Of a DNA stretch of 64,000 nt, positions 30,131 to 58,909 are shown one piece after another; positions within the stretch are counted from its first letter, which is position 1; every line of letters starts with the position of its first letter. This DNA comes from Ulva prolifera. Lineage: Eukaryota; Chlorophyta; Ulvophyceae; Ulvales; Ulvaceae. The stretch lies in contig CM041198.1 of assembly GCA_023078555.1 (NCBI GenBank), positions 4,077,354 through 4,141,353 on the forward strand, in the 5' to 3' direction. The notes beneath the pieces were generated by a model that was given only the letters and a program-made list of their open reading frames with translations, made no database searches and was not told the DNA's origin. The translations under genes and the position numbers were made by a program.

Positions 30131-32481
30131 TCAAGCATCCTGTTGTGGGGCGGCCGGCACGACCCGCGACGCACGCTGGCCGATGCTGACTCTATTCTGA
30201 ACGCTCTGACCCGCCCGCCGCAGGATCGCGAGGAGCTTGCTCACTCCGAGCACGTTGATGCAGAAGCTGCAGACGGTGGTGCAGCAGGAGGCGAAGGCAA
30301 AGGCAGCTTCGCGGCGCAGCCGCTCACTGTCCCTGCCTTCCGGCAGCTGCATGGCAGAGAACACCTGCAGCAGAGTCATGGTGATGCCTCCGATCTCGAG
30401 GAGCATGATGGTTGTGTTGGCCGCCAGCACCAGCTTGAACCTGCACAGCCAGCGGTGGGGTTTCGCATTGTGCTTGTTGGAGAGGCTCGGAGGGGCGGAT
30501 GTCAATACTGCAGATGCTGTGTAGCTGCAATATCCCTCTCTTTGGGGGACTTCATGCCATAATACGAAATGGCATGGTACAACGCTCTGCAGCTGGTCGG
30601 ACCTCCTGGCACAGGCGGGCAGCCTGTGTGATGAGCTAAGCACTTGCCAAAGGTACCAGCAGATGAGTACTGCTAGACCAAGCCGGGCGGAGTCCTAAGG
30701 GCAAGAACAGATGCCCAGGCGTACGCAGAAAAGCTCAATCTGCGACGCTGACATGCCCAGGCAGGCTTCCTCCGACACATCGATCTCCCTAAGGGCAAGT
30801 ACAGATGCCCAGGGAGGCTTCCTCCGACACATCGATCGCCCGCTGCTTCATTCTCAGATGGCCAGCAGCAGGAGTCCAAGCCATCTTCTCAAAAAAATAC
30901 TGTATGACCAGCCTGGAGGTGCACAGCGCATGGCGGATAGGTTGCATAGACTGTTTAACAAGCATCGACCCATGAAGAAGAAGAGTGCGGAAGCATGAGT
31001 GGCCTCTGTGGCCCCTGCCATTCCACAGCAGCACCCTGCGGACCTTGTCCGGACTGGAACAGCATGAAGTGACAGGCGTCGAAAGATCACTATGCAAGTA
31101 GCAGAAGCAGAAATTACCGTTTTCCCGTGCTCTCAAAGAGAGAAAGTTGGCCCGTCGTTTGGAGTACAGCGATCATGAGTAGCAGGTTGCTGACAGAGAT
31201 GACGCCGGCGATGATGGCGAGGCGGGTGTAGTGCGTGCAGGGCACTGCCTCGCCATACCACACACAGTCCGGGTCCTGCACACATGCAACCACGATGGAC
31301 CTCATTCTGGAACATGCAGATCTCGAGATCGATAGTCCCCATTGCCGATACTGTACTGCTCCTCACTTGGCGCAAGCTCAGAAGAAATCATGTGGGCTTG
31401 GCGGAGGCGGGTGGTTGCTGCAGCTGTCTCTGGCCGCCATCCAAGTTGACATGTTGGTCGGATGATCTGATACCTGTGTTGTGACGCCGACGCGCTGCCT
31501 CGGCACACTGGGGAATAGTCAGTGCGACAGGTGCTGATGATCAGACTTTGCCCGCCACACATGAGAATCTGCAGCATGTCGACAACACCAAAGACTGACA
31601 CATTGGTGATTCTCAGTACCTACATAAAGCTCAATCGCAGCTTCTATTACCTCCTACTTGCCAACCTCACATGGTGCCATGGACACCCCCTATCCAGACC
31701 ATACACGCTGAGATTGTGTGGATTTAAAGGTGTTTGGGCATCACGGAACGTGCTGGCAGGGCCAAGAATGCCCACATGATGGCTGTGAAAGGTTCACCTG
31801 ATCGAGAAGAATTCGGACGAAGCCAATGTCAGTCAACCCGTCGACAAGCCGCATGGAAGAAAAAGCAGCGTTCTTCATGCCTGGCCAGATGGAAGTATAA
31901 GGTTGTGGGGGATGGTCCGCAGCGACACCTCCATACAGTGAATTCAACATCGTAGCAAAGACACCCACAGCCTCCCCAACAATGAAAGCCAAGCGATCGC
32001 CAAACGGAGAGTATGAGATAGGCCCAGTAAATACAGCAATCACGATGAACGAGCTTGCGAAACTCAGGCTGGCTGACGCTGCCTTGTAAGCGGGCGCTGT
32101 GGCTGCTGCAGGACCGAATCTCCATATCCACCCGGCCAAGAAGACATATGATACCACTGTGATCAGTCCGGGTATGTTCATGATCATGATTCCCCATGGT
32201 ACAGCCACGATGTGAACGACAACCACCGTCGCAACCGCCACAGAGACAGAACAAGTATACACGAGGCACCCGACATGTGGCTTGACATGTATTTTCGCCC
32301 AACCAGACGGCGCCTGTGATGACATGCCCAACTTTGCGCAAACTGCAAAGAAGTACTGTGTGTGCTGCCTCTCATGTCGCCCTTCCACATGCTTGATGAC
32401 CTCTGGTCCTTCATAGGTTGCGCCTGCCACAGTGCGTGCATACGGAGTAGCCGCTACAGAGGGCTCGGGAGCCTCCATCAT
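30131..32481 (-). CDS. Array gene A: multi-pass membrane protein, unknown family
   Basis: The exons are 32481-31798 (684 bp), 31275-31118 (158 bp) and 30440-30131 (310 bp), joined CAG|GT...AG|GAC and then ACG|GT...AG|G, coding 383 residues. Exon 1 starts at an ATGATG and has a short polar N-terminus, the block SSQAPSGWAKIHVKPHVGC, and four likely transmembrane helices, including a segment with IMNIPGLITVVSYVFLAGWI. It then has GPISYSPFGDRL and MRLVDGLTDIGFVRILLDQ. Exon 2 has DPDCVWYGEAVPCTHYTRLA and one helix. Exon 3 has a helix after FKLVLAANTTIMLLEIGG and another through CCTTVCSFCINVLG. Seven or eight helices in total are estimated by eye. Exon 2 starts DPDC where the other copies have GPDC. 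No enzyme motif is recognised. Intron 2 contains a 23-bp sequence repeated at a 52-bp interval (30763 and 30815). Confidence 0.85.
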
Positions 32482-32716
32482 AGATATGGAAAGGTACTGA
32501 TGTTTACACCGTAGCTTGAACAACGGGAATGCGTCACAAACAAGTCGATCGATCCAAGTGAACGTGAACTCAGTCTGCTTGATACACCTACGACTTTCCC
32601 GAGGTCGTGTACAAGCACCGATGAAAGTTGTTGGCAGACGACATTTTACGCGTAGCTTGGGATCTTAAGGATACATTTCAAACCTGTCCTGGCACAGCCC
32701 TGCCGTAACCGATCTT

Positions 32717-32734
32717 GAGCACCTATAGACATTC
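32717..32734 (-). promoter_or_regulatory. Conserved upstream element of array gene A
   Basis: On the plus strand it reads GAGCACCTATAGACATTC, 236 bp upstream of the ATG. Near-identical copies precede genes B-E. The surrounding block, about 32590-32735, is also shared, notably CTACGACTTTCCCGAGGTCG and GCGTAGCTTGGGATC. It could be promoter or 5' untranslated exon. Confidence 0.55.
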
Positions 32735-33289
32735 ACCCTTCATTGCAATCATGATGCAGTTACTTTGTGTCGATCGGTCCAGCCGCGATGGCCGGCGACC
32801 CGATTCAGACGCAATCCAAGGTATCTGCAGATGCACCATACATTGACCCACTCTCCGACGTCAACGTCGCAGTGCAGATCGCGTACTGCGTTATCCCGAG
32901 AGATGCATCGGTGCAATGAAACGCACATACAGCGTGCGCGTCACCATGCTCAGCAACAGCGACCGCATCCAATTTAAGTGTCAAATTCCAGAGAATAATT
33001 CCAGATGAACATTCATTAGGCCAGACTTTCAGGCTCGGACTTCACAACGGTTGCCATGCCAACGTGACGTCCTTCGATCCTTGCAAGCCCATCGACATCC
33101 AGATGTAGGGGAGCATACAGTTGTGCAACCACATTTATTGTCATGCAAATCAGCTTTGTGCAGCCTGAATGTCCGTCAAATCAGCATTGTCCAGCCGAGA
33201 TTGCTTGCTTTGTGTCAGTGGCATGCAGCCTCAATGAGTCTGAAAGTATTCAGACAATGCCGACTTCACTCGAACGGTCAGGCTGCCGT

Positions 33290-33560
33290 GTAAGCCAGAA
33301 CGCTGTACTCTTCACGGCTGCATTTATGGCCCTGTACGGCTGTGGGGGGAGGTCTGCAACTGTGCCTAGACCCAGTCCTGACAACATCATTGTTGTGAAA
33401 GCAGCCATTGTCTTCACGATGATGAGAGACAGCTAGCCGCGAAATGGAGACTATTGGACGGGCCGAGTGAACACCGCGATCACCAAGAACACCAACGCGA
33501 GAGTGGGCATCGGTGTTGCTCTGACCTATATAGGTGCAGCGACTCTGCCACGCCTCGATT
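33290..33560 (-). pseudogene. Relic of array exon 1
   Basis: Read on the minus strand, the stretch aligns with the third and fourth helix region of exon 1 of the intact copies (VFLVIAVFTRPV corresponding to FFVxAVFTGPI). It also matches the segment that reads GGCTGTGGGGG on the plus strand in copies D and E. Frame-breaking indels and stops are present, and no exon 2 or 3 partner was found next to it. Confidence 0.65.
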
Positions 33561-35188
33561 TTGAACAGCTGATGTGATGCAGCATCTCCCCAAGAAGTTC
33601 TGGCCTCAGGTAGCACAGCGACTGCATGGCCTTACGCATGTTCTCACATTGCAGCTTGTTTGCATGTCCTCACATTGCGGCTTTTTCAGCTGCTTAAACT
33701 CAAACAACTCCATTCGGAAGCTTGAATGTTTGTTTCATTCGGTGCAACTCTGTGCAGCTGTATACACGCCAGCGGCTGAGCGTGCAGCTGTTGCGGCCGC
33801 AGTACTGGCTTTGCAGCAGGAACCATCGACTGTGGCACAGCGTTCCCATGTCGGCATAGCTGCTGGCAGCGCTGTCGTCTGTGAGAAATACCTGATATGC
33901 GGAGTTGATCTGAAAGCTGTGCAGCACAACATCGCACGCGGTAAGCCTAGATTAGGAATGTGGCACAGATGTTGTAGCACCAACATAGACAACAGGCGTA
34001 CATACATGGATGTTGTACACAGTGACCCATTGAAGCCATGCAAGATGTCATCATTGGTACGTGCGTACTGTTTGAGTGAAACACGCTCATTTCAAACATG
34101 TGCGCACTGTCATGTAAAGGGCGCCACTGATTTCAAAACGCCCCTTTCACCATTTCATGTAGCAAGCGTGCATATGGATGCAGAGCGAGCACGCATTTGT
34201 TCAACTCTGCTGAAGCAGAAGCCGCCAGTTTACAAAGCAGGCCTTATTGTGAACAGCAAGTGGGAACTCTGTATGTGGACGGCACATCAGGCTCGACCAG
34301 AAACGATATACAATGAGCCAATCATGTTCGTAGCCGCTACAACCGCAGCCAGACCAGAAGACCGCCACCCAGACTCAAATTACATGATAGCATTGCTGCC
34401 TATATCTGCTGCAAGTCTAGGTTTCTAGATTTCCCCCGGATGGCTTGTTGATTGGTACCAGGGCCTGCAGATACACTGTGTAGCCCCAATCGAGTTGACA
34501 CCAGCACGCGTTGGCTGTCCCTGTGGCAACAGCGACCTGTTGCATGGTCCAGCTTGCAGCCTGCACTGCTCCACATGCAACGCCGTTGCCAAGGGTCTTC
34601 AAATGTTCCTCAAAGTAAGTTCAACTTTGCTCTGCTTTACCAGTTGTCGCTGCAGGCCTGGTGCACTTCACTGCGCCCCACACATAACCGGACGAGTTGA
34701 TTTAAATCCATACTGCCTGATTGACGAATAGCGCCTCTGCCAGAAACGCAGGATGATCGCGCATGGCGGCCAATTCCTGATGCTCCACTGCAGGAACCAG
34801 CCCCGCAAAGCGTGCAATGCAACGATGCCTCCTCTGCCAGTTAGTGCCACCGGCCAGTCAGCCATTGCGTTTTCAGCGCCTGGGTCAACAGTCGACGCAC
34901 GTGTACTTGCTGTCAATCATGTCGCAAGGCCTTGCCTAGGTGTACTCCATCAGCATTACTCTTCCACATGTACTGATTCAACCAGAGATGCAAGTACAGC
35001 CGGGACCAATGCACAATTACGTGCTCGGGACGGCCACAGTCCACTGCTGCCTCTTTCTGAAGACCCCCCCACCAGCTGGGCAGCTGCACTGACCAGACAC
35101 GTGCGTGCTCGTTCCGCTGATCATGCATTGGCAGTGCCAGCGGTGCTACCTGCTTGTCTGCCATTGACCTTGTCACACATGTGCACGT
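33561..35188. other. Array spacer between relic and gene B
   Basis: The stretch holds spacer repeats shared with other inter-gene regions (34500-34590 and 34745-34850). A plus-strand frame at 33574-34428 is open for 284 codons but resembles nothing known and is covered in part by repeat-derived sequence. Confidence 0.4.
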
Positions 35189-37128
35189 TCAAACATCCTG
35201 TTGAGGGTCAGCCGGCGCAATTCGTGATCCATTGTGGCTGGTATTGCCTCTGCTCCGCATGCGCTGACGCGCACTCTGCAGGAAGGAGAGGAGCTTGCGC
35301 ATGCCAAGCACGTTGATGCAGAAGCTGATGACGGTGGTGCAGCAGGAGGCGAAGGCAAAGGCGGCTTCACGGCGCAGCCGCTCACTGTCCCTGCCTTCCG
35401 GCAGCTGCATGGCGGAGAACACCTGCAGCAGGGTGATGGTGATGCCTCCGATCTCGAAGAGCATGATGACCGTGTTGGCTGCCACCACCATCTTGAACCT
35501 GCACAGCGAGCTGTGCATCCTTACGTTGTGCTCCATGGGTAGAGGTCATCGTTGGCGTCTCTCTATATTACATGACTCGGTTTGTAATGACGCTGTGATG
35601 ATGGTGGCAGGTTCTCGTGGAGGCCGGCAGCCTGTGTTCAACGTCATGCGTATGCCAAACCCACCAGGAAAGGTGTATTAGTCTTTAGCCTGCTGAAGGG
35701 CTTCAACCCAGCGCAGCAGGAAAGCTGAACTTGCCTCACAGACATGGCCACATGAGCCTCATCTGACAGCTTTTCCATGCCTGCTGCTACAGCCACAGAT
35801 GGCTGGCAGTGAACAATTAATTTAACCAGACATGCTCCTGCGCGTGGACCGCGGACCGCTGTGCCTGCTTATGTTTGCTTTAGTTTTAAATAATAGTTAG
35901 TGTATGAATAATTTGAATAATTGGTAGTTGTCAGCCGCCTCGAAGTGCTTGGAGATGCATCGAGCAGCAACATCTTTGCATGCACTGTTCAACATGTGCA
36001 GATCCATGACAGCGAGCGCGCAAGAATCATTTGCCTGTCTGGTTGTCCCGCTTGTTGCAACAGCGCTGTGCATGCCTGGACTGGAGTAGCATGGAAAAAC
36101 AATGAAAGGCATCAGAGACAAGTATGCTCGCAGGAATGGGGCGACACCGTCTTCCGGCACTCTCAAACAGGGAAAGTTGGCCTGTGATTTGAAGCAGAGA
36201 GGCCATGAGGACGAGATTGCTGACAGAGATGACGCCAGCGATGATGGCGAGGCGGGTGTAGTGCATGCAGGGCACTGCCTCACCATACCACACACAATCC
36301 GGGCCCTGCACACAAGCAAACATGGAAGCTGAATTTGGAACACGCCGATCCCAATATCAAGTGAATCGAAAGCAGGAATTGCATGCATTGTTGAGCATGC
36401 TGACTGGGCTGTGATCGTCCACATGATGGCAGTGAGACGCTCACCTGGTCGAGGAGAATTCGGACAAAGCCAATGTCAGTTAGACCATCAACCAGCCGCA
36501 TGGATGTGAAAGCAGCATTTCTAACAGCTGGCCACATAGTAGCGTAAGGCTCTTGCGGGTGGTCTGCAGCAATGCCGCCAGATAGTCCACTCAGCATGGT
36601 CGCAAAGATAAACACCGAGTCCCCGGCAATGAAAGAAAGGCGATCACCGAACGGGGAATATGAGATGGGCCCGGTGAACACAGCAGTCACGAAGAACATG
36701 CTTGTGAGAGTCACGACTGATGACGCTGCCAGGTACATGGGTGATGCAGCTGCTGCAGGCCCATGTCTCCATATCCATCCAGCACAGAAGCAGTAGGATG
36801 CCACTGAGATCAGTGCAGGTATGTTCATGATCGGAATTCCCCATGGAACAGCCGCAATGAAAACCACAGCCATCGTGGTGATTGCGACAGAAACAGCACA
36901 AGTGTATACGAGGCACCCGACATGTGGCTTGACATGTATCTTGGCCCACCCAGACGGCGCCTGTGACGACATGCCCAGCATTGCGGAGATGGCAAAGAAC
37001 GTTTCTCCCAGCTTTTGGTTGTCCTTTCGCATGTCGACATGCTCGATGACCCCTGGTGCTGCAGAAATGGTGCCTGCAGCGGTATGTACGTGCAGGCGAT
37101 CAGCTACAGACGAAGCAGAAGCCTGCAT
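35189..37128 (-). CDS. Array gene B: multi-pass membrane protein, unknown family
   Basis: The exons are 37128-36445 (684 bp), 36305-36148 (158 bp) and 35498-35189 (310 bp), coding 383 residues. Splice phases match the other copies. Intron 1 is only 139 bp, the shortest in the array, against 417-680 bp elsewhere. The start is the ATG at 37128; the preceding codon, ATG in copies A and C, is GTG here. Helix layout and signature blocks match gene A: SGWAKIHVKPHVG, IPIMNIPALISV, GPISYSPFGDRL, MRLVDGLTDIGFVRILLDQ, GPDCVWYGEAVPC and EAAFAFASCCTT. The third exon is very close to those of C and E. Function unknown; location in a membrane is inferred from hydrophobicity only. Confidence 0.87.
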
Positions 37129-37374
37129 CACAAGGGTAGTAGCCTATTGACTGAGAAGCATTGCGCTCATATCGCAAGAAGGCTATAAGGCAAGGGGATA
37201 CACGGCACAAACGAGTCCGAAGGGTCGACCTCAGTCCGACACAACTACGACACTCCGACATTATGCACAGATATTTGTGGCATGCGGTGGCCATGTAATG
37301 CGCACCTGCATGTTTGGCATCACAAGGATGCTACCTCAGCCTGTCCCCGCGCAGCGCTGCCAGAACAGAGCTTG

Positions 37375-37392
37375 AGCACCTGTAGACATTCC
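37375..37392 (-). promoter_or_regulatory. Conserved upstream element of array gene B
   Basis: On the plus strand it reads GAGCACCTGTAGACATTC, 247 bp upstream of the ATG. The flank at 37318-37374 (GGCATCACAAGGATGCTACC onward) is shared with the corresponding region of C. Confidence 0.55.
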
Positions 37393-38465
37393 CCCTGACA
37401 CACTACATAATTCACACTACATAATTCCTCAGTTGAGCTCAGTCCGTATGCAGATATCTCTGAGATGGTTGTGTGTGGATCTGTCCGGCCGCAATGACTT
37501 GTGGCCCGATTTAGGCACAATCCGAGTTATCTGTAGTTGTATGTATGGAGAACCTATGTATGGTGAACCATTTCTTCACTGCTCTCTGACAGCAACATGG
37601 ACATGCACACCATGCTCTGCGTTACACCGGTGAATGTAGCGGAACACACATCGAGTGTGTATGTCACCGTGTTCAGCAGTGGCCACCAGATCCTAGTAAC
37701 ATTGTGACCGTCGAGAGATCCTTCCAGATGATCATTCATCCGGCTAGCATGCCAAACTCTGACTGCACAACGGAAATCACTACGCCAGCACGAACTGGCA
37801 TGATCATATGTGATCCTTGCAAGTCAATCGACGCCCAAATGCAGCGGAGAATACGCTCGTGCAGCCATGTTCCCATCATGCATGCAACTCAGCTTGAATG
37901 TCGTTGTCCAGCCAACACAGCTTTCATTGTGGCAGTTCCATGCAGCCTCAACTAGTCTAGATGTACAACTCCAGCCAAACAGTCAACCTCCCACGTCAGA
38001 CCGCAATGATCGTGCATGGCAGCCATCTCCTGATGCTCGGCTGCAGGACCCATAGCCATGTGCACTTAGCGTGCAAGGCCACCATCTCGCCTCTTGCAGG
38101 ATGTGCCACTGGCATGTGTGCCAGTGCGTTTGCAGCGCATCGTTCAATGTCAAAGGGTGGGTGGTCGGTGCTAAGCGTGTCCCAAGATGCAATGCATTTT
38201 ACTCAACACATCAGCGTGGCCTGTCCAAATGAACTGGTCCGATCAGCTTCCGCTGCAGAGCAGACAGTGATCAACCCATGCGCGCTTCCATGCGTTCCAC
38301 GGCCGCCTCTCTACTTCTCCCAAGTCGTCAGAGAAGCTGCTCTCACCAGACACATGCACCTTTCAAGTGTCTTCTGCATGTCTTAATTATCTGTTCTTCG
38401 GGCGGAAACAGTGCATGCGGTGCTACCTGCTTGTCTGCCATTGACCTTGTCACACATGTGCACGT
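37393..38465. repeat. Array spacer between genes B and C
   Basis: Bases 37720-37960 are diverged copies of 33000-33240 (cores: TGATCCTTGCAAG, ATCGAC, GTCCAGCC, GCAGTTCCATGCAGCCTCAA). Bases 37995-38110 match 34745-34850. No gene recognised. Confidence 0.55.
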
Positions 38466-41067
38466 TCAAACATCCTGTAAAGGGTCAGCCGGCGCAATTC
38501 GTGATCCATTGTGGCTGGTATTGCCTCTGCTCCGCATGCGCTGACGCGCACTCTGCAGGAAGGAGAGGAGCTTGCGCATGCCAAGCACGTTGATGCAGAA
38601 GCTGCAGACGGTGGTGCAGCAGGAGGCGAAGGCAAAGGCAGCTTCACGGCGCAGCCGCTCACTGTCCCTGCCTTCCGGCAGCTGCATGGCGGAGAACACC
38701 TTCAGCAGGGTGATGGTGATGCCTCCAATCTCGAAGAGCATTATGGCAGTGTTGGCCGCCACCACCAGCTTGAACCTGCAAGGCAAGATATGTAGTTTCG
38801 CATTGTCCTTGATGGAGAGGATCAGGAAGGAATCTGCCACAATGTGAACGCTGGGCAGCCACGGCATCTCTCTTGTTGTGGGACTTCGTGGTGTGCCATG
38901 GCAAGGTACGTTCCTTCAGATCTGGCTGGCGCTTCTGCCACAGGTGGCAGCCTGGGTGCGCCACACTGCCAGAGCTACCAGCATAGCGGTACTCCTGTTT
39001 GTGAGCATGGATCTGTAGGTGTACTGCCAAGCTGGTCCAGGCAGGGTCTCAGGGCAAGTGGAAAGACATGGGCCTCATGATCAGCAGCGAGCTCACTTTG
39101 CCACGCTGACATGGCCACATGAGGTTCATCTGGCAATTTGACTATGCCCGCGAGAAGGCACGGTTTGTCATTGCATTAAAAATGAGATGCCCATGAGACG
39201 GTCGCAGCAATAAGCGTAGTAGGCATAACAACACATGAGCAATAGCAGCACGGCCCCCAAATAACCAGCAGCAGGAGTGCAACTGAAATGCAGACTTCCT
39301 CACACAAAATCTGCTTCACTCGTGAAGCGCTTGGAGTCACATGGAGCAGGATGTGGCAGCAGCATCGTGTGCACTCTTCCATAAGCACAGATCCACTGCG
39401 GGCAGTGTAACAGCACAAGTGGCATCTCCGATTGCCCCTCATTCCACACCAGCGCCCCGCAGAACTCCAGTGGACTAGCATGGAGTCTGATCATATGAGA
39501 TGTGTTGAAGAGAAAGTGCGCATGTAAGAAGGAGCAGGACAATACCTCCTTCCAGCACTCTCAAAAAGAGAAACTTGGCCCGTCATTTGAAGCAGAAAGG
39601 CCATGAGGAGCAGGTTACTCACAGAAGTGACGCCAGCGATGATGGCGAGGCGGGTGTAGTGCGTGCAGGGCACTGCCTCGCCATACCACACACAGTCCGG
39701 GCCCTGCACACATGCAACAACGATGGAGCTCACTCTGGAACATGCAGAGCTTTCCAAATGCCACTGCTAGGATGCTCATCATTGAACACATGCACATGAA
39801 AGCACTCACGTGAACGGGATGGGCGTGTGGGCATGGGCGTGTGTGTGGTTGTGTGGCAGTGTCGCTGTGTCCGGCGTGGGTGCTGCCGTTGCGTGGGTGT
39901 TTTGGTGTGCGCTTCGTGTGGCTTGCTGCGTGGTGTGCGTTTCCCCTGCTTCTTGCTTGCGGTGCTACCTGCCTCGCTTGCTTTGTCCTTGTAACACATG
40001 AAAGCACTCACGTGAACTTCAATAGAAATCCACCTACACTCTAATTGCCTAATTTGAATACAACAGCTGCGTCTTGACTGACCTCCGCAAGGTGGCAGGA
40101 TGAGCTGGTCAATCAGCATGCACCATGCTGCTGCAACACCACCCACTGTCTTACTGTCATACATGCGACAACTGCTTGAGCGGTGCATATACACACAACG
40201 AGGCACGACCAGGTGCCGTGTTTTGAAAAAAAACTCACAGTGCATCCACTGCACCTTAAATTTTGGAGCATTATCATAAATCACAAAGACCAACATCATA
40301 TGGAAGAGAACAATCATGCATTGTGGAGCATTCCAATTCCGGCCGGGGTGAGAACATACGCATGATGGCAGTAAAAGGCTGACCTGGTCGAGGAGAATTC
40401 GGACAAAGCCAATGTCAGTCAGCCCATCAACCAGCCGCATGGATGTGAAAGCAGCATTCCTTACGGCTGGCCAAATACTGTTGTAAGGCTGTGAGGGCTG
40501 ATCTGCAGCGATGCCTCCAAATAGTCCACTCAGCATTGTAGCAAAAATAGTCACCGAGTCCCCGACAACGAAAGCCAGGCGATCGCCGAATGGAGAATAT
40601 GAGATGGGCCCGGTGAAAACAGCAATCACAAAGAAGGTGCTTGCAAGAGTCAGGATTGATGACGCTGCCAAGTATGTGGGCGCTGAAGCCGCTGCGGGCC
40701 CGAATCTCCATATCCAACCAGCACAGAAGAGATAGGATATCACTGAGATCAGTGCAGGTATGTTCATGATTGGAATTCCCCACGGAACAGCCACAATGAA
40801 CACGACAGCCATCGTGATAATTGCGACGGAAACAGAACTAGTGTACGCGAGGCACCCGACATGTGGCTTGACATGCATCTTGGCCCAACCAGATGGAGCC
40901 TGTGACGACATGCCCAGTACTGCGCAGACTGCAAAGAACGACTGACCCAATGTCTTGCTGCCGTATCGCCCGTCGACATGCTCGATGACCTCTGGTGCTG
41001 CACAGGCTGTGCCTGCCGCAGCATGTGCGTTCAGACCATCGACGAGAGACGATGGGGAGGCCATCAT
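38466..41067 (-). CDS. Array gene C: multi-pass membrane protein, unknown family
   Basis: The exons are 41067-40384 (684 bp), 39703-39546 (158 bp) and 38775-38466 (310 bp), coding 383 residues with the array's splice phases. The exon-1 donor is GTCAGC rather than the GTGAGC or GTGAAC of the others. A long open frame continues through intron 1, but the conserved exon-2 block GPDCVWYGEAVPCTHYTRLA and the homology to the other copies show that the intron is real. Intron 1 (680 bp) carries a 179-bp insertion at 39816-39994 flanked by perfect 23-bp direct repeats. Protein blocks: SGWAKMHVKPHVGC, NIPALISVISYLFCAGWIWR, FTGPISYSPFGDRLAFVVGD, MRLVDGLTDIGFVRILLDQ and FKLVVAANTAIMLFEIGG. Function unknown. 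Confidence 0.88.
39793..40017 (-). mobile_element. Short non-coding insertion with 23-bp target-site duplication
   Basis: A perfect 23-bp direct repeat (39793-39815 and 39995-40017, core CATGAAAGCACTCACGTGAA) brackets 179 bp that the introns of the sibling copies appear to lack. On the minus strand the insert begins TTACAAGGACAAAGCAAGC, the same start as the segment at 11395. No open frame of note and no terminal inverted repeats. The long direct repeat suggests a short retroposed element, but class is not established. Confidence 0.7.
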
Positions 41068-41370
41068 CACATGTACCGCAGACTATTGCTTACAGATTCA
41101 CAGTTTGATGATTTGCAACAATGTCAAAGGCAGACAGACAACCATCATGAATTGCCGTAATGAAAGTGGGCCTCGCGATATCGGTGTTCCTGATAAATCT
41201 ACGATTCTCCTGAGGTCAGGCACGAGGAACCAGCATCTTGTTGTGGCGTCCAAAAGCTATACAATGGAAACCGAGATATGCGTAGCTTGGCATCACGAGG
41301 ATGTAGTTCAATCCTGTGACAGTATTCCTGTTCCTGCACATCGCGCCCAGGTCCCGTCTAGATTTAGCTG

Positions 41371-41388
41371 GAGCACCTGTAGCCATGC
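41371..41388 (-). promoter_or_regulatory. Conserved upstream element of array gene C
   Basis: Plus-strand GAGCACCTGTAGCCATGC, about 304 bp upstream of the ATG and slightly diverged from the others. The flank includes CTACGATTCTCCTGAGGTC (about 41198) and GCGTAGCTTGGCATCACGAG (about 41280), both shared with other copies. Confidence 0.5.
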
Positions 41389-41578
41389 ACCCCTCAGCTG
41401 AACTCGGTCCGCACGCAGATAGTGTGTATCGTCTAAGCGAATGTAAGAGCGCATAAAATTCTCACTCTGAAGGCCGTGTGCTTTCGCATGCCACTGCACG
41501 AAACTTCAGCACTGGGAGCGTGCAATCCGGCCAAGCACACGTCCAGGGGGACTGCGAGCACCTAGGCGTTCGAGTTCG

Positions 41579-41624
41579 AGCGTGCCTGGCGCTCGAGAGA
41601 GCTCTCTCGAGCGCCAGGCACGCT
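41579..41624. repeat. Perfect 46-bp palindrome without a loop
   Basis: The left arm (AGCGTGCCTGG then CGCTCGAGAGAG) is the exact reverse complement of the right arm, with the centre between 41601 and 41602 and no spacer. It lies between genes C and D, in spacer DNA. It could form a cruciform, or could be a fold-back artefact of library construction. Confidence 0.9.
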
Positions 41625-42964
41625 TTCCAGCAGCAGCATGTAGGGCCGCTGCACAGGCTTCAAACCTAATGTTGCACTATCTGTCAGACATCTGTACATC
41701 TGCACACGCCAAAAATTGCAAAATTGACCATTGCATAGAATGGTCGGGCCGCAGCATTCCCATGTTGGCATCATGATGACAACAAGCAGCGCTGTCATCC
41801 GCATGCGATGACTGTCTGCCTTATGTGCGGCATTGCTTGCATTCGCACGTGCCCCATGTTTGAGAGCAAGTCCGCGCACCGATAGGCCTACAGATTGTAC
41901 AGGGTTGAACCTGCTGATGCAGACTTTGCCAGTTTGCACAGTGGGCCTAGGCTAGGGGTGCGCAGCAAGTGGGCGCTGCCAGGTTGTACACGGAAGAGGA
42001 ACATCATGCTTGAACAAACATGGTGTCCAAGTTACTACAGTAAAGTATGATCTACACCGCATATTTATGAATGTGGCCATGGCCGCTGCAATTGCAGCCA
42101 GAGCCAAGCACGGTGACACGTTGTCACGATACATGAAACACTGCCGCCCATATCTTCCGCGGCCCCACACTGCGCAAGACTGTTGGCAAAGACCTGCGGC
42201 CGGCAAATCTACATAGTTCCGTACTGAAGTTTCTTTCAGGTGAAGGTGGCACCAGCACTCCGTGGCTCCGTGGTAGAGGCGAGCTGTCGCCGGGCCCAGC
42301 TTGCAGCCTCCCCACTGCTCCACTTGCACCGCCATCACCCACTGCCACAATTGTGGCCTGGTACGCTCCATGGCGGCCCACAAGTCCAGCACACATGACC
42401 AGATACATCCTCCTGAAGCCATCTGCCCGAACCTCCGGCTGGCGTCTTCGCCAGCATCGCAGGATGCTTGCAATACTCATGAGTATGGCATCCGGCACAT
42501 CTTCACCTCGCCTGCAAACACCATGTTTGCGACATGTGCAAGCCACAGTCTCACATGTTTCAGTCGATGCTAGCAATAGCAGCCTTGCTGCCATGACCTC
42601 TGTGGCACAACCTTCTGCAGCTGTTCATGTTAAGCGCATGCGATTGCCGCTGAGCGTGTGCCGATGTGCGATTCGGTTCATCGGCCTCGCACGTCCAAAA
42701 CTTGCATTGATCCAATGAGAGCCACAGCCCCAAAGGAGACACCAACTGAGCCAGGCGCAGGTGCATGCTCCGAATGGCCGCATCCCAAGGCCGTGCCTCT
42801 CTCAATTTCACTCCACGACCTGGGAACTTGCAATTGCTCTCGCCAAGCACGAACAGGGTTAATTATAGTTCTCTGCCTAGTTCTTCCGTCGTTCGAGCGC
42901 CTGCGGTACCAGATGTGCTGCCTACCTGCCCAAACTCTTTCAACCTTGCCGCGCGCATGCTGGT
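41625..42964. other. Array spacer between genes C and D
   Basis: The stretch includes a weak copy of the spacer repeat at 42265-42345. No gene recognised. Confidence 0.45.
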
Positions 42965-45208
42965 TCAAGCAGCCTGTTGTGGGTTGGCTGGGACGATCTC
43001 GGAGTCATCTGGGCCTGGGCTGACTCTGGTCAGTATGGTCTCACCCGCTCGCCGCAAGAGTGCGAGGAGCCGACGCATGCCGAGCACGTTGATGCAGAAG
43101 CAGACAGCGGTGGTGCAGCAGGATGCAAAGGCAAAAGCGGCTTCACGGCGCCGCCACCCGCTCGCTCTCGCTTCCGGCAGCTGCATCGTAGAGAAAATCT
43201 GGAGCAGGGAGATGGTGATGCCTCCCATTTCCAAGAGCATGATGGCGGTGTTGGCCGCCAGAACCAGCTTGAACCTGCACAGCGAGACGTTGAGCTTTGC
43301 GTTGAGTTTGACAAACAGGCTGAAAAAAACAAAGGGGGGTCTGATGTCACCGTTATGCATCCTAGCTGTGAAGCCACAGTATTTCTGTACGTCATTGCAT
43401 GCCATGGCATGTCACAATTCTCTGAAGCTGATATGAGCTGCTGGCACAATCGGGCAGTCTGTGTGCAGAGTCATGCTTTGCGAGACCCACCGGCACCGGT
43501 GCACTGCTACGCTGGCCCACGTTTGGTGAGTGTACACGATGTTGCTTGGTCTCAACGCAAGAAGAGAGGCCCGGGGCCTAGAAGAGAAGCACAAATTGCG
43601 ACACTGACATTGCCAAGCCGGCATCGTTCTACCTCTTCCCCACACCCGCTGCGGCAGCCTCAGATGGCCAGCAGCAGGAGTGCAAGTCAAACACCTGCTC
43701 CTGGCACAAGGACCGCTTCACCCGTGAACTGCTGGATGCTGCATGAAGCAGGATGTGGCGGCAGCACTGCAATGCTTGTGAGGCAGAGATCCACAGAAAA
43801 GGGCGTGCAAGCGTGAGTGGCCTTTCTGGCTGCCCCTCATTGCACAGCAGCACCATGCAGAGCTGGAGTGGGCCAGCATGGGATGTGAGCACAAGGCATG
43901 AGGCACACATGTGACATGGGTGCATACGGCAGGAGTAGGGCAATACCGCTTTCCGGCACTCTCGAAGAGAGGGATTTGGCCCATCGTTTGGAGTACAGCG
44001 ACCATGAGGAGCAGGTTACTCACAGAGATGGCGCCGGCGATGATGGCAAGGCGGGTGTAGTGTGTGCAGGGCACTGCCTCGCCATACCACACACAGTCCG
44101 GGCCCTGCACACATGCAACCACGACGGAGGATGAGTTCGGAACATGTAGATGCTAGAGGTCTCGAAGGTTTCCATGACCTGCTCAGAACTGCTCCTGAGC
44201 TGGCACGCACAAAGCTAGCAAGCACATGAACTACACATGGAGTTCATGAAGCGCTTGGCTGCTTCAGACGAGCCTCAGCAAATTGGCAGGATGAGCTGTA
44301 AAATTACAACACGTCATGCTGCAGATTGGCACAGCAGTGACTGTCAGTTGCCGTACACGGCTGGGCTGCCATCACACTTTCAGGGTGAGCATGCCACCCT
44401 GTATTGTGGAACCCCCTGATCCAGATCATGAACACTGAGATCATGTGGAACAGAAGCAGAATGTTTACGCTCGGGAGACGCTGACTAGGGTATCGAAGCC
44501 TGCATGGTAGAGGTGGCTCACCTGGTCGAGAAGCAGCCGGACCACGCCGATGTTAGTCAGACCTTCAACCAGCCGCATGGACGTGAAAGCAGCTTTCATC
44601 ACGGCTGGCCATATGGTGGTGTATGGCTGTGGGGGTTGGTCTGCAGCAATGCCTCCGAACAAGCCGCTCAACAGTGTTGCAAAGATACAGAGAGACGCCC
44701 CAATGAGGAACGACAGGCGATCGCCGAATGGAGAATACGAGGTGGGCCCAATGAAAACAACTGTGACAAAGAAGGAGCTTGCAAGAGTCAGGACTGATGA
44801 CGCTGCCAGGTACGTGGGCGCTGCAGCTGCCGCAGGCCCAAATCTCCATATCCACCCGGCCAAGAAGACGTAGGACACCACAGAGATCAGTGCCGGTATG
44901 TTCATGATTGGGATCCCCCATGGAACAGCCCCAACGTAAACGACAGCCATAGTGGTGATCCCGACAGAGACGGAAAAAGTGTACGTGAAGCGCCCGACGT
45001 GTGGCTTGACGTGTATCTTCGCCCAACCAGACGGAGCCTGTGAAGACATGCTCGTCCTCGCGCAGACTGGAAGCACAGAGATTCCCAACTGTTGGGAATT
45101 ACATCGCACGACGTCGTCATGCTCGATGACCTCTGGTACTGCACAGGGGGCGCTTTCCGCAGTACATCCATTCGGAGCAGCGGCTACAGACAATTCAGAA
45201 GCCTTCAT
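42965..45208 (-). CDS. Array gene D: multi-pass membrane protein, unknown family
   Basis: The exons are 45208-44522 (687 bp, one codon longer than the siblings), 44104-43947 (158 bp) and 43274-42965 (310 bp), coding 384 residues. This is the most diverged copy. The N-terminal segment has VLPVCARTSMSSQAPSGWAK where the others have FFAVCAxLGMSSQ. It has MRLVEGLTNIGVVRLLLDQ for MRLVDGLTDIGFVRILLDQ, GPTSYSPFGDRL for GPISYSPFGDRL, and MQLPEARASGWRRR for the otherwise constant MQLPEGRDSERLRR. All splice sites and the frame are intact, so it looks functional. Helix count and topology match the siblings. Confidence 0.86.
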
Positions 45209-45425
45209 CACATGAACCGTAGGCTATGATGTTCAGAGAGTTGCTCAATTGCTGCATTTATGTCGAGGGCCAGCGGAAATACGTCGACGAAGACTCCAAC
45301 GAACGGTGACATCAGACTTCTTGATACTTTCATCTAGAGACTCTCCAGGGCTCGGGAAAAAAACCTGATCTTGATTTGCACACCAACATATGATTCGTAG
45401 CTGGGCACAACAAGGATGCAAGCTC

Positions 45426-45443
45426 AAGCACCTGTAGACATTC
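45426..45443 (-). promoter_or_regulatory. Conserved upstream element of array gene D
   Basis: Plus-strand AAGCACCTGTAGACATTC, 218 bp upstream of the ATG. It is preceded by CGTAGCTGGGCACAACAAGG, the counterpart of the CGTAGCTTGGCATCACGAGG block of C. Confidence 0.5.
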
Positions 45444-45539
45444 ACTGCTGCTCGGTTCTCACGCAGACGCTATCGGGCCGGGTCTGGCGCTAGGCATGGA
45501 TGTGGCAACGGTAGGCACACCCGATGCACGTGCAAACGG

Positions 45540-45905
45540 GTTTCAGCAAAGGCGATGTCAGGCATCAACAATGCACATTATTGTGATAGCACCAAAGATC
45601 ACAGCTAGCCAGATGGTGGAAACAGGCTCAGGCGGGCAGTTTGCTGCTATACCTCCGAATTGTTGACACATCCTAGCAAAGATGGCCACGTACATCCACT
45701 CGTACCACAGTATACAGAAACCATCATGTGAACAGAGCACCTGTCAGAATGAACAGAGCATATCCAAGACCCATAAGCGCTTGGTACCCCAACGCTGCCT
45801 CTCTTTCAGGTCCACACGTCCATATCCAGCCAATCATGACAGACAATGATGCCACTGCGACGAGCGCAGGCAGACTGACGAGGTGAGGCCCCATGAAATC
45901 GATGC
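45540..45905 (-). pseudogene. Second relic of array exon 1
   Basis: Minus-strand fragments align with exon 1 of the intact copies in the correct order. LVSLPALVAVASLSVMIGWI corresponds to IMNIPALISVISYLFCAGWI, and GGIAANCPPEPVSTIWLAVI corresponds to GGIAADxPPQPYTTIWPAVR. The reading frame is broken between them and exons 2-3 were not found nearby. It is more decayed in DNA than in residue pattern, suggesting it was once coding. Confidence 0.7.
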
Positions 45906-46203
45906 TGCCACCCCATCTGCCTTCGCTATCGCGAAGCATTGTTCAGTAATAACGGTATGCATCACTTTCATGAGTGATTGCTGCTCAGTCCGTTCCATCA
46001 GCCCTGCTCTGCCACATGCACAGATCCAACCAGACCTTCTCCTCCAGAACAGACACTGGGATTGACCCATGCGTGAACTCATGGTCACATTCCAAAACGG
46101 CCACCTCCATCTCGAGTTCGCTCCACCAGCCAGGAAGCTGCCCGCACGGGGAATGCATGTATGTTTTGCCGGCCGGATGTTATGGTTCCAGCGACCAATC
46201 TGG

Positions 46204-48467
46204 CTATGACCTCATGTCACACGTAGATGTAAGAGCACCCTCTTCTGGGCCGGCCGGTGCAATCTGAGACCCATGCGGGCCATTGCTGACTCTGTTCTGC
46301 ACGCTCTGACCCAATCGCCGCAGGAGTGCAAGGAGCTTGCGCATGCCAAGCACATTCAAGCAGAAGCTGGCGACGGTGGTGCAGCAGGAGACGAAGGCAA
46401 AGGCGGCTTCACGGCGCAGCCGCTCACTGTCCCTATCTTCCGGCAGCTGCATGGCGGAGAACACCTGGAGCAGGGTGATGGTGATGCCTCCGATCTCGAG
46501 GAGCATGATGACCGTGTTGGCCGCCACCACCAGCTTGAACCTGCACAGCCAGCTTTGCATGTTCGCATTGTGCTTGATGGAGGGGCACAGACGGGCAGAT
46601 GCCACCAACGCGAACGCTCGGCAGCTGCGACATCTCTTGTAGGACGCTACGACACGGCATGCCGTGGCGCTACGACATGGCACGGTGTGATGCTCCGTTC
46701 ATTCGTGCGGCACACGGGAACTGTTCACCTGGTCCAGGCGGGACCTCAGGACAAGAGGAGAGGCCTGGGCACCATCATCAGCAAGCATATTCATTTTGCC
46801 ATCCTGTCACGGCCATACGAGCTCATCTGACAGTGGACCATGCTGGCTGTGTGAACCTCAGATGGCCAATGGCAGAGGTCCCACTCACACGATTCTTGCT
46901 CGCAGAAGGACCGCTTCACCCATGAGACAGTTGGTGCTGCACACATCAGAATGCAGCGAGAGCATTACATGCATGGCCCAAAGAGCACAGGCTTATAAGG
47001 TCAAGTGCAGAAGCATGAGTGGCCTCTCTGGTTGCACCTCATTCCACAGCAGCACCATGCAGAGTCTGAGTGGACCAGCACGAAATGTGAGCGGAGGCGC
47101 CAGCGATAGGTGTGCACAGACAGAAGGAGTAGGACGTTACCGTGTTCCAGCACTCTCAAAGAGAGCAACTTGGCCTGCCATGTGAAGTAGAGCAGTAATG
47201 AGGACTATGTTGCTGACAGAGATGACGCCGGCGATGATGGCGAGGCGGGTGTAGTGCATGCAGGGCACTTCCTCGCCATACCACACGCAGTCCGGGCCCT
47301 GCACGCATGCAACCACGACTGGAGCTCAGCCGTGCAGATCTCGAGATGCAGATCTCGAGATTCCAAGAATTCTCTGTGCCACGGATGGACTTCTCCTCAG
47401 CTGGCACGCGCACAGAAGCAATGAACTTGACCAAGGCTGTGTCTGATGTAGCTGTCTCAGACTGCCCTGGGCAGACTGATCTGGTGCTTTGAGCACTACG
47501 TGTTTTGGCGCCAACATACCGCTCCGTCAGAATCCAAAAAATGGTCACAGCGTTTGTGATCAGCCTATGCCCACCTACTTCGGAACCTAGAGCATAGTGA
47601 CCACGTCCCAGACCAGCACATTGGCGGCTAATTGTATCAACACGAGGCTGAACAGCCAACCCTCCAAAACAAACACCATCAAGACCCGACATCACACGAA
47701 CTGGATGTACAAGTTTGATGCATTGTGAGAATGACATGCTCACTGCGCTGAAACTGTGCGCATGATGGCTGTCAAAGGCTCACCTGGTCAAGGAGAATTC
47801 GGACAATGCCAATGTCAGTCAACCCATCGACTAGCCGCATGGCAGTGAAAGCAGCGTTCCTCACGGCCGGCCATATAGTGGTGTATGGCTGTGGGGGATG
47901 GTCCGCAGCGATGCCTCCAAGCTGTCCGCACAGCATCGTACCAAAAAGAAACACAAATCCCACAGCAGTGAGAGACAGGCGATCACCGAATGGAGTATAT
48001 GAGATGGGCCCGGCGAAAGCAGCAATCAGGAAAAACGCGCTTGCAGGAGTCAGAATGAAAGACGCTACCAGATACGTAGGTGCTGCAGCTGCTGCGGGCC
48101 CGTATCTCAACATCCATCCAGCACAGAAGGCAAAGCTTGACACTGAGATCAGTGCAGGTATGTTCATGACTAGGATTCCCCATGTCATAGCCCCGATGAA
48201 AACGATGGACATCGTGGTGAGAGCGATAGAAACAGCAACGATGTACGCGAAGCATCCGACATGTGGTTTGACATGTATCGTCGCCCAACCAGACGGCGCC
48301 TGAGAAGACATGCCCAGCATTGCGCAGACTGCAAAGAACCGAGCACCCAGTTGATGACTTTTGTTTCGCGCGTCGACCAGCTCGACGACCTCTGGTGCTG
48401 CACAGGTGGTGCCTGCCGCAGCATGAGCGTTCAGACCATCGCCTGTAGACCATTGGGCGGCCAGCAT
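46204..48467 (-). CDS. Array gene E: multi-pass membrane protein, unknown family
   Basis: The exons are 48467-47784 (684 bp), 47298-47141 (158 bp) and 46540-46204 (337 bp), coding 392 residues. Exon 2 reads GPDCVWYGEEVPCMHYTRLA with GEE for GEA and ends ESAGTR. The other copies stop after a QQDA/QDV-type end; here the frame continues nine more residues to CDMRS. Exon 1 keeps SGWATIHVKPHVGC (Ala-Thr for Ala-Lys), MNIPALISVSSFAFCAGWML, GPISYTPFGDRL and MRLVDGLTDIGIVRILLDQ. Function unknown. It is the first gene of the array in transcriptional order and has two copies of the upstream element. Confidence 0.87.
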
Positions 48468-56700: not shown

Positions 56701-57263
56701 GGGCCAGTCCCGTATCATGCGTGGCTGCCGCAGTAATTGTCTTGGCCTCCCGGCAGCCCCTCCGAAACACACGTCAGCGCCCCCCCCCCCCCCCGCCTGC
56801 AGGAACTCGCAAAGATGCGCCACCGCCGGCACCAGCGCTTCGCGCTCACACTGGAGCTCGTGCTAGTGGCGATGCGCCTCTCCTGTGAGGGCTTCTTCGT
56901 CGTCATGGCCACCTATGCCGCGTACCTGCTCCGCGGGCCGCCCCGCCTCCTCGCCGCGGCCATCCGCGCCATGTCCGCGCTCTCCCTCACCCTACAGGGC
57001 GCGCTCAGCGTCTTCCCGGCCGTGTGCTGGGCGTACGGCGCCGGGCTCTTCTTCTCGACGTTCGTGAGCCTCGTGTTCTGGGGCGCGCCGGCGTGGGCCG
57101 CGTACGAGTTTGTCGCGGACAACCTCTTTGCGGTCGTGCCGGTCGGCGTGCGGCGCGCGGCACGCGGCGTGCAGGAACGCTCGGGGCCGCAGTGCGTGAT
57201 CTGCTGGGGTGCGTTTGCGGATGACAGGGGGGGCATGGACGATGGGTCGTCAGACGCGGGGTC

Positions 57264-57294
<31 letters not shown>

Positions 57295-58909
57295 TGCGAT
57301 GCAGATGGGAACGACGTACACGAGACGGACTCTGTGAATAGCGCGGAGGCGCAGGCTTGGGGGGAGGATGCAGAGGGGGGCGTTGCGGAGGGGGGGCCGG
57401 GCAGCAGCGGCGCGGCGAGCCCGGTTGTTCAACGAAGGGCGCGGCGGCGGTGGTTTCCCTTTGGGCGCCGAAAGGCGACTGCGGGCGGGGACGAGTCAGA
57501 GGATGAGGTGGCTTCGAGGCCGGTGTCATGTGAGGGTGGGGCGGCAGTGCTCGGCACACCCAGGCACAGCGCGCATGCTGCGGCAGAGCCAGCCGGGCAT
57601 GTGGAACCACGCCGCGGCAGCCCCATGGCACACGCGCTGGGCCCAGCTGCTAATTCTGGGAATGCAGAAGGCGAAGGGCCATCGGGGTCGGACGTGAGGG
57701 ACACGCTAGGGGACTGGGAGGACGAGCCTCCGACGACCCGTGGGCTGCGAGACAATGACGCGGTCGTGACGGAGTGCGGGCACGTGTTCCACCATGGCTG
57801 CCTCTCGCACTGGCTACAGCAGTGCATGGTGGGCATGCGTAGCACCGCGTGCCCGCTGTGCCAGCGGCAGATCGACGTGGACATCCAGCTCGACGCGCTC
57901 GGCCTGCTACGGCGGCTGCGGCGGCGGCTGTGGCAGCCAGCGCGGGGCGGCGGCGGCGGTGGGGAGCAGGGGGAGGCGGATGAAGGGGCGGACGGCGAGG
58001 TGTGGCTCCTGATGCGCCTCCTGACAGCATGCATCGGGGCCGCGTGTGCAGCCTTGCTGAGTGGTTCCTGGCACCATCACTGTGTATCTGTCTCGTTGGC
58101 AAGTCGTTGCGGTGCAAGGGCCCCGGCTCGTGTGTGTTTCCATTGCTGCGGTCGAGCGAGTTGCCACCTCTGCTGTGCGGTGGTTGGACTGCGGGTGGCC
58201 GCATTGTGCACCGCCATGATCGGTCCCATTGATGCTGGCTGCATCATTGTGTCTGTCGACAGGGAAGTGACCACCAGGGCGTCGCAACCTGCAGTGCTTC
58301 TGACTATGGCCATGCGCACCCAGTTGTCCGCGGCACTCTTTCAGACAGCCACTGCCTGGGACTACGGCCTGCAATGTTCAGCGAAAGCTTCGATGTCCTG
58401 TTGTTTCCGTGGCGGCGTTCTGCGACACCTCAACACATGAAGCACACAGCGTGCCTCTAGGTTACACTTCTGCTGCGCCACAGCATCAGAATCGCATCAA
58501 ATGCAAACTCAGGCTTGGCTTTGCATCCTTTAACAGCTCAGCGCAACCAGCAGTCGCCGCACCACATCGCTCCGGCCCCCTCAGCCCCCCTATCACCCTC
58601 GCTAGCGCCTCTCCAATGCACATGCCTGCATGTCCAGCATCAAACACGCAGCCCACGGTGCAGGTCGTGGCGGGCATGGTCGGCGCCGGCGCGCCACACG
58701 CCACCTTTGCGAGTGTCGACTTCCTGCGCGGCCACATGCCGCCCGCCGCGGAGCTCAACACCGGCTTCTACCAGACCGCGCAGCTCGGGGCGGAGGAGTC
58801 AGCGACGGTGCCATACATCACGCGCTGGGCGCACGACACGGCGCTGCTGCACCAGTGGGGCTACGGCGTCGGCGCCGACGACCGCGCCTCCGCGGTGACG
58901 TCCGGCTGA
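53757..58909 (+). CDS. Multi-pass membrane RING-H2 protein (probable E3 ubiquitin ligase)
   Basis: Seven exons agree in frame: 53757-53951, 54078-54222, 54458-54720, about 54933-55425 (acceptor uncertain), 55852-56138, 56803-57999 and 58664-58909, giving about 941 residues. The N-terminal third has several hydrophobic helices (AGLGAIVAYGAAANFVP, GIWLIFLLGKG, ACMFFISAFSFVTLV, IVLWLFIICSAAGV). More helices open exon 6 (LELVLVAMRLSCEGFFVVMA and others). A RING follows: QCVIC, then after 190 residues TECGHVFHHGCLSHWLQQ and CPLCQ, giving C-x2-C...C-x-H-x2-H-x2-C...C-x2-C. Membrane RING proteins of this type usually pass ubiquitin to membrane or ER substrates; that role is inferred. The insert between the second and third zinc ligands is Gly/Asp/Glu/Ser-rich. 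Exon 6 is preceded by a pure-C pyrimidine tract (56780-56794). The last exon is linked by phase only. Confidence 0.75.

Follow-up and report, generated by a model that had tools for sequence, protein, structure and literature searches.

A tandem array of predicted eight-helix membrane proteins in Ulva prolifera: apparently working paralogues of a genome-wide family with a possible translocator role

Eukaryotic genomes often contain uncharacterised membrane proteins in tandem families, and tandem multigene families that evolve by birth and death occur in eukaryotes generally. Two groups of described membrane proteins offer close comparisons for the locus treated here. XKR8 and XKR9 are reported to have eight helices with charged residues inside them, and hydropathy misses one conserved helix of hydrophilic character (PMC8500837, PMC8298096). 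In the XKR family the hydrophilic helix is transmembrane helix 3 (TM3), which carries a conserved PQL motif, and the fold comprises two structurally related four-helix repeats (PMC8298096). The insect OR/GR, GRL, and DUF3537 proteins are described as 350-500 amino acids (aa) long with seven helices and an inside N-terminus, and single related proteins of the insect receptor superfamily are reported from two green algae (PMC7746228). The present analysis concerns a window of 64,000 nucleotides (nt) from U. prolifera (assembly GCA_023078555.1, contig CM041198.1, here C3, C3:4077354-4141353), which contains a tandem array of five genes, A-E. These encode a membrane protein that apparently remains in use in all five copies, belongs to a large family in this genome, and is tentatively read as a translocator.

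Rebuilding all five genes reproduced the original prediction exactly in strand (minus), span (30131-48467), exon sizes, and intron phases. Exon 1 is 684 base pairs (bp) long (687 in D), exon 2 is 158 bp, and exon 3 is 310 bp (337 in E). Intron phases are 0 then 2 throughout, with GT...AG borders at 10/10 introns. All five rebuilt coding sequences begin with an in-frame ATG and stay open up to the final stop codon, consistent with the earlier claim that no exon contains a stop. The proteins are 64-84% identical in pairwise comparison. Sequence blocks previously described as invariant or nearly invariant are all present, several being nearly rather than fully so: the alignment has NIPGLITV in A, GPTSY in D, and WATIHVKPHVG in E. 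The introns had also been called alignable. Every pair is indeed homologous by BLASTN (E < 0.01 in 10/10 intron-1 pairs and 10/10 intron-2 pairs, against 1/25 in control comparisons of intron 1 with intron 2), but only in patches, and intron 1 ranges from 139 to 680 bp.

The ratio of nonsynonymous to synonymous substitution rates (dN/dS) argues for purifying selection on these frames, as had been suggested. In the comparison of the five copies that the original prediction called for, all 10 pairs lie under 1, at 0.29-0.48 (NG86) and 0.34-0.56 (maximum likelihood). Mismatches at codon positions 1, 2, and 3 among A-E amount to 0.178, 0.155, and 0.293. Regional values, calculated as mean dN over mean dS from 8-10 usable pairs per region, are ~0.05 in the best-kept parts (the block preceding TM1 and the TM3-4 loop) and 0.12 in TM5. 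They are 0.26 over TM5-8 versus 0.44 over TM1-4, and reach 0.61 at the C-terminus and 0.82 at the N-terminus, remaining below 1 in every region tested. An array of decaying duplicates, heading to pseudogenes with open frames that are merely young, could account for the two relics within the array and for the highest dN/dS being found in pairs including E (0.40-0.48). However, all five frames are open despite an NG86 dS of 0.31-0.60 among pairs, and the best-kept blocks would not be expected at ~0.05 under decay. Neutral evolution was simulated on a simple star tree with five frames followed in 2000 runs per rate. With 0.05 changes per site per branch, 2/2000 runs kept all five frames open; at each of 0.1, 0.15, 0.2, and 0.25 the count was 0/2000, and the result at 0.1 already counts against the decay reading. 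Five open frames by chance are very unlikely, and decay is the least probable of the explanations considered, scarcely to be expected at all. A-E appear from their sequences to be working paralogues under purifying selection.

The array is one part of a much larger family. A protein search with gene C through the 88.9 Mb genome (44 contigs) returned 109 matches, from which loci were counted by hand. There are 53 exon-1 loci on seven contigs (E-values 6e-146 to 1.1e-5), comprising A-E and 48 further loci outside the five, and most were recovered with two further queries. Their distribution is C1 2, C2 7, C3 18 (A-E among them), C4 8, C5 14, C7 1, and C8 3. Counts of this kind are lower bounds. 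The A/B relic and a single place matching exon 3 only were left out. A stop falls within the aligned stretch in 6/53 exon-1 rows, of which one represents two near-identical places; a further four loci are split across frames. Splicing was attempted on 18 members outside the window, giving 13 full three-exon proteins, four that were shortened because part of exon 1 or of exon 3 was missing, and one failure. Junctions in the 13 full models lie within 15 bases of the expected positions; the splice search accepted only phases 0 and 2 and looked only near the expected junctions, meaning that the sites exist but the phases were not free to vary. In a tree of 18 rows (A-E and the 13 full outside models), A-E form a single clade with support 100/100. 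Closest to them stands the tandem array at C5:7.53-7.57 Mb (93/94, not starred), followed by the pair C5b_1 / C3_3924. The proposed local expansion is hence correct for A-E but incomplete as a description, as the family is spread genome-wide.

Two other loci of the family have unusual features. The array at C5:7.53-7.57 Mb (L040-L044) contains a 2.1 kb one-gene stretch that recurs every ~9.8 kb in three copies of 99.7-100% identity, reflecting either a very recent duplication or an assembly repeat. In the member at C3:3139881-3141512 (L054), all three exon matches lie inside one unbroken frame of 586 aa, and its introns could be translatable if retained.

Gene loss and local homogenisation have left traces between and within the five genes (Table 1). 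The relic between A and B, corresponding to C3:4110591-4110896, contains four in-frame stops on read-through (one TGA and three TAG). B and C share a stretch in which 28-30 bases agree in each 30-base segment compared, whereas B/E and C/E agree at 16-20 there (27 in the segment nearest the 5' edge). Beyond this stretch the B versus C likeness drops to 14/30 or fewer. Within exon 3, the initial ~180-200 bases are almost as similar among B, C, and E; what sets the B/C pair apart is thus limited to the end of that exon. Overall B and C are 96% identical in exon 3 and 83% in exon 1. The most plausible origin of the tract is conversion or a recent partial copy. Taken with one another, the relics, the B/C tract, and the near-identical C5 units indicate ordinary birth-and-death evolution, in which the family would have grown and decayed through tandem duplication, copy decay, and local homogenisation. 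Clusters, relics, local homogenisation, and a common exon plan are all features shared with birth-and-death tandem families of other eukaryotes. Unlike such families in general, the A-E protein has no family match in the libraries searched.

Table 1. Genes, exon-1 relics, and the B/C-only stretch in the window (positions counted from its first base)
Feature	Position (strand)	Detail	Product	Basis
Gene A	30131..32481 (-)	exon 1 31798-32481, exon 2 31118-31275, exon 3 30131-30440	383 aa	gene model, alignment, dN/dS
Gene B	35189..37128 (-)	exon 1 36445-37128, exon 2 36148-36305, exon 3 35189-35498	383 aa	gene model, alignment, dN/dS
Gene C	38466..41067 (-)	exon 1 40384-41067, exon 2 39546-39703, exon 3 38466-38775	383 aa	gene model, alignment, dN/dS
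Gene D	42965..45208 (-)	exon 1 44522-45208, exon 2 43947-44104, exon 3 42965-43274	384 aa	gene model, alignment, dN/dS
Gene E	46204..48467 (-)	exon 1 47784-48467, exon 2 47141-47298, exon 3 46204-46540	392 aa, extended C-terminus	gene model, alignment, dN/dS
Exon-1 relic between A and B	33253..33525 (-)	TM3-TM5 part		33253-33432 E 2.7e-9; 33454-33525 weak, E 0.14
Exon-1 relic between D and E	45561..45942 (-)	TM2-TM5 part, two frames		45561-45743 E 1.4e-8; 45727-45942 E 1.4e-5
B copy of B/C-only stretch	35139..35318 (-)	3'-terminal 130 bases of exon 3 plus ~50 bases of the flank downstream
C copy of B/C-only stretch	38416..38595 (-)	same extent as in B

Several further elements were observed in and around the array. 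A block around AATGTCTACAGGTGCTC is recognisable by eye ~230-330 bp upstream of the ATG in copies A-E, with four of the five aligned, and may be a shared promoter element. Its exact 17-mer occurs at two places genome-wide, upstream of B and of E; both sites lie in the array, which is expected because of shared ancestry. A perfect 46-nt palindrome lies between C and D at window positions 41579-41624 and does not extend by a single base on either side. Of two flanking open reading frames, that at 17610-18719 (+) encodes an LNS2 domain of the lipin type and that at 56737-58437 (+) a RING-H2 finger.

Searches for relatives found no credible family in Pfam or NCBIfam (5 members, 14 members, and 6 single exons) or in PHROGs (14 members). 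Profiles built from 5 and from 14 members found no credible relative in the PDB. Within these four libraries the original statement that the blocks belong to no known family holds. The library matches are weak and isolated, with no family in more than 2/14 members; HMMER filters hide most matches above about 0.1. Even the five strongest were taken as chance. Prolipoprotein diacylglyceryl transferase (NF000777) matched gene D alone at E 0.0014 over 46 residues of exon 1, with 18.9 bits against a cut-off of 558, and a PDB mitoribosomal S7 chain matched a C-terminal low-complexity stretch at E 0.0033. NAD(P)H-quinone oxidoreductase subunit 4 (E 0.011), Patched (E 0.017), and DUF3087 (E 0.018) each appeared in 1/14 members. 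Viral, prokaryotic, and phage DNA yielded no relative, although three of these searches were seeded by short peptide patterns, which distant relatives can escape. Among the papers listed in literature searches, titles and abstract openings gave no account of the A-E family.

Conservation was assessed in the 14 members, part of which are only 23-29% identical to gene C, whose numbering is used here. W61, P68, G123, P124, P194, C232, W234, and S332 are invariant, while G153, P159, P191, R211, D218, R223, C241, Y244, L305, and G346 are kept in 13/14. All 14 have E, D, or Q at position 296 and K or Q at position 306. Mean hydropathy reveals seven strong helices and a charged segment at 205-227, holding R211, D218, and R223, that would form an eighth, in agreement with the 7-8 helices originally counted. 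With eight helices and the N-terminus inside, lysine plus arginine (K+R) sums to ~13.8 inside versus 4.1 outside per sequence, and the outside sum is ~7.4 when TM5 is omitted (all hand-summed over the 14 members). The N-terminal region and the C-terminal tail are both basic and both predicted inside. These data favour eight helices with both termini in the cytosol. Under this layout C232 and C241 fall in one outer loop, between TM5 and TM6, where they probably form a disulfide.

The predicted topology would differ from that of G protein-coupled receptors (GPCRs), which have seven helices with the N-terminus outside and the C-terminus inside, whereas the basic N-terminal region of A-E is predicted inside. 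No GPCR family of Pfam was found in the 14 members. Members of the CREST superfamily (PAQR, alkaline ceramidase) share conserved His residues. In the A-E family no His stands among the columns identical in at least 12/14 members.

Structure models support helix positions at most, and no fold. Gene D was folded with AlphaFold as one read-through frame in which the introns, of 417 and 672 bases and hence multiples of three, were kept as linkers. The model has a mean predicted local distance difference test score (pLDDT) of 42, with helices at all eight places. Exon 1 of C folded with the other four exon 1s gave a mean pLDDT of 38. Foldseek listed 20 matches to the gene D model, none at E <= 0.001 and the best at 1.1; the model is too poor for this result to weigh either way.

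The eight predicted helices, the charges within them, and a conserved hydrophilic helix below hydropathy detection would all be expected of a remote branch of the XK-related (XKR/CED-8) scramblases, PF09815. Such a placement is nonetheless very improbable. Pfam matches to the XK-related family are found in 0/14 members and there is no sensible PDB match. The hydrophilic helix is the fifth in A-E and the third in the XKR family. In TM3 no Pro or polar column is common to at least 9/14 members, so that the PQL motif is missing. No internal repeat was seen either: the two halves align by hhalign no better than 15 shuffled controls, although sequence alone cannot exclude a structural repeat. A six-frame search of the genome with PF09815 was silent, but so were the control genomes, and the result shows no absence.

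Tentatively, and with rather less than even confidence, the A-E family is read from its sequences as a translocator in the membrane, with TM5 and TM7 as its charged core and TM1-4 as a module that varies more. Like the topology, the disulfide, the facing of TM5 and TM7, and the translocation role are inferred; the last would make the protein a transporter, a channel, or a scramblase and not a receptor. The core would consist of helices 5-8, in which charged TM5 (R211, D218, R223) would face TM7 (E296, K306) within the membrane. The outer TM5-TM6 loop would be pinned by the C232-C241 disulfide, and the charged core may line the route by which a polar solute, an ion, or the headgroup of a lipid passes. 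The faster-changing TM1-4, together with the free N- and C-termini, could tune the choice of substrate or partner between copies. A bolder version, which is doubtful, would make this a previously undescribed superfamily of eight-helix translocators with ~50 copies in one genome, in which the TM5 R-x6-D-x4-R motif and the TM7 acid/Lys pair form a conduction or flipping path gated by the disulfide-pinned outer loop.

The same buried charges could instead only hold helices together in a structural or regulatory protein, such as a scaffold, an adhesion partner, or an enzyme-complex subunit. Buried salt bridges can serve structure alone, and in XKR8 the change of some of them is reported to be tied to loss of expression (PMC8500837). 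Moderate dN/dS and fast-changing termini also allow a scaffold. The retention of the TM5 charges in 13/14 members, part of which have only 23-29% identity to C, is suggestive of a direct role, and packing may also account for it. The scaffold explanation is a serious rival, considered somewhat unlikely.

A repertoire of chemosensory or surface receptors, in which variable TM1-4 would bind ligands and conserved TM5-8 would signal, is likewise a serious rival, judged unlikely. High copy number, tandem arrays, and relics fit such a repertoire, as does a C-terminal half that is conserved while TM1-4 and the termini vary. The predicted N-in topology also recalls the insect receptor superfamily, and A-E resemble the OR/GR, GRL, and DUF3537 (PF12056) proteins in length (PMC7746228). 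Conversely, eight helices are favoured in A-E over the seven of those proteins, and dN/dS stays below 1 in every region tested. No Pfam receptor family was matched at a meaningful E-value, the best being 7TMR-DISM_7TM with exon 1 of B (E 0.24), and none of the OR/GR, GRL, or DUF3537 families was found in 5 members, 14 members, or 6 single exons. The genome search with PF12056 was silent, as were its controls, and shows no absence.

Several observations weigh against a translocator with a charged core. Both models are of low confidence, at mean pLDDT 42 and 38, so that the helix packing and the path are only putative. No functional homologue or domain was found among the libraries searched. The hydropathy of TM5 does not reach the threshold, and with 3.0 K+R per sequence the outer loop between TM7 and TM8 is rather basic, contrary to the eight-helix N-in layout. 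Gene D, the sole member lacking D218, has N at that position and E for D214; therefore these acids are not essential in every copy. The faster change of TM1-4 may merely reflect relaxed constraint on lipid-facing residues. Finally, the common gene plan of distant members is partly built in by the preset phases and search ranges of the splicing step.

The importance of the family would be much lower if a wider eukaryotic search placed A-E in a known family. Large lineage-specific membrane-protein families often record the dealings of an organism with its surroundings. For the U. prolifera family, the motif set of W61, P68, G123-P124, R211/D218/R223, C232, W234, C241, Y244, and S332 provides ready residues for functional tests, and paralogues ranging from near-identical to ~23% identical provide a ready set of proteins in which to carry them out.

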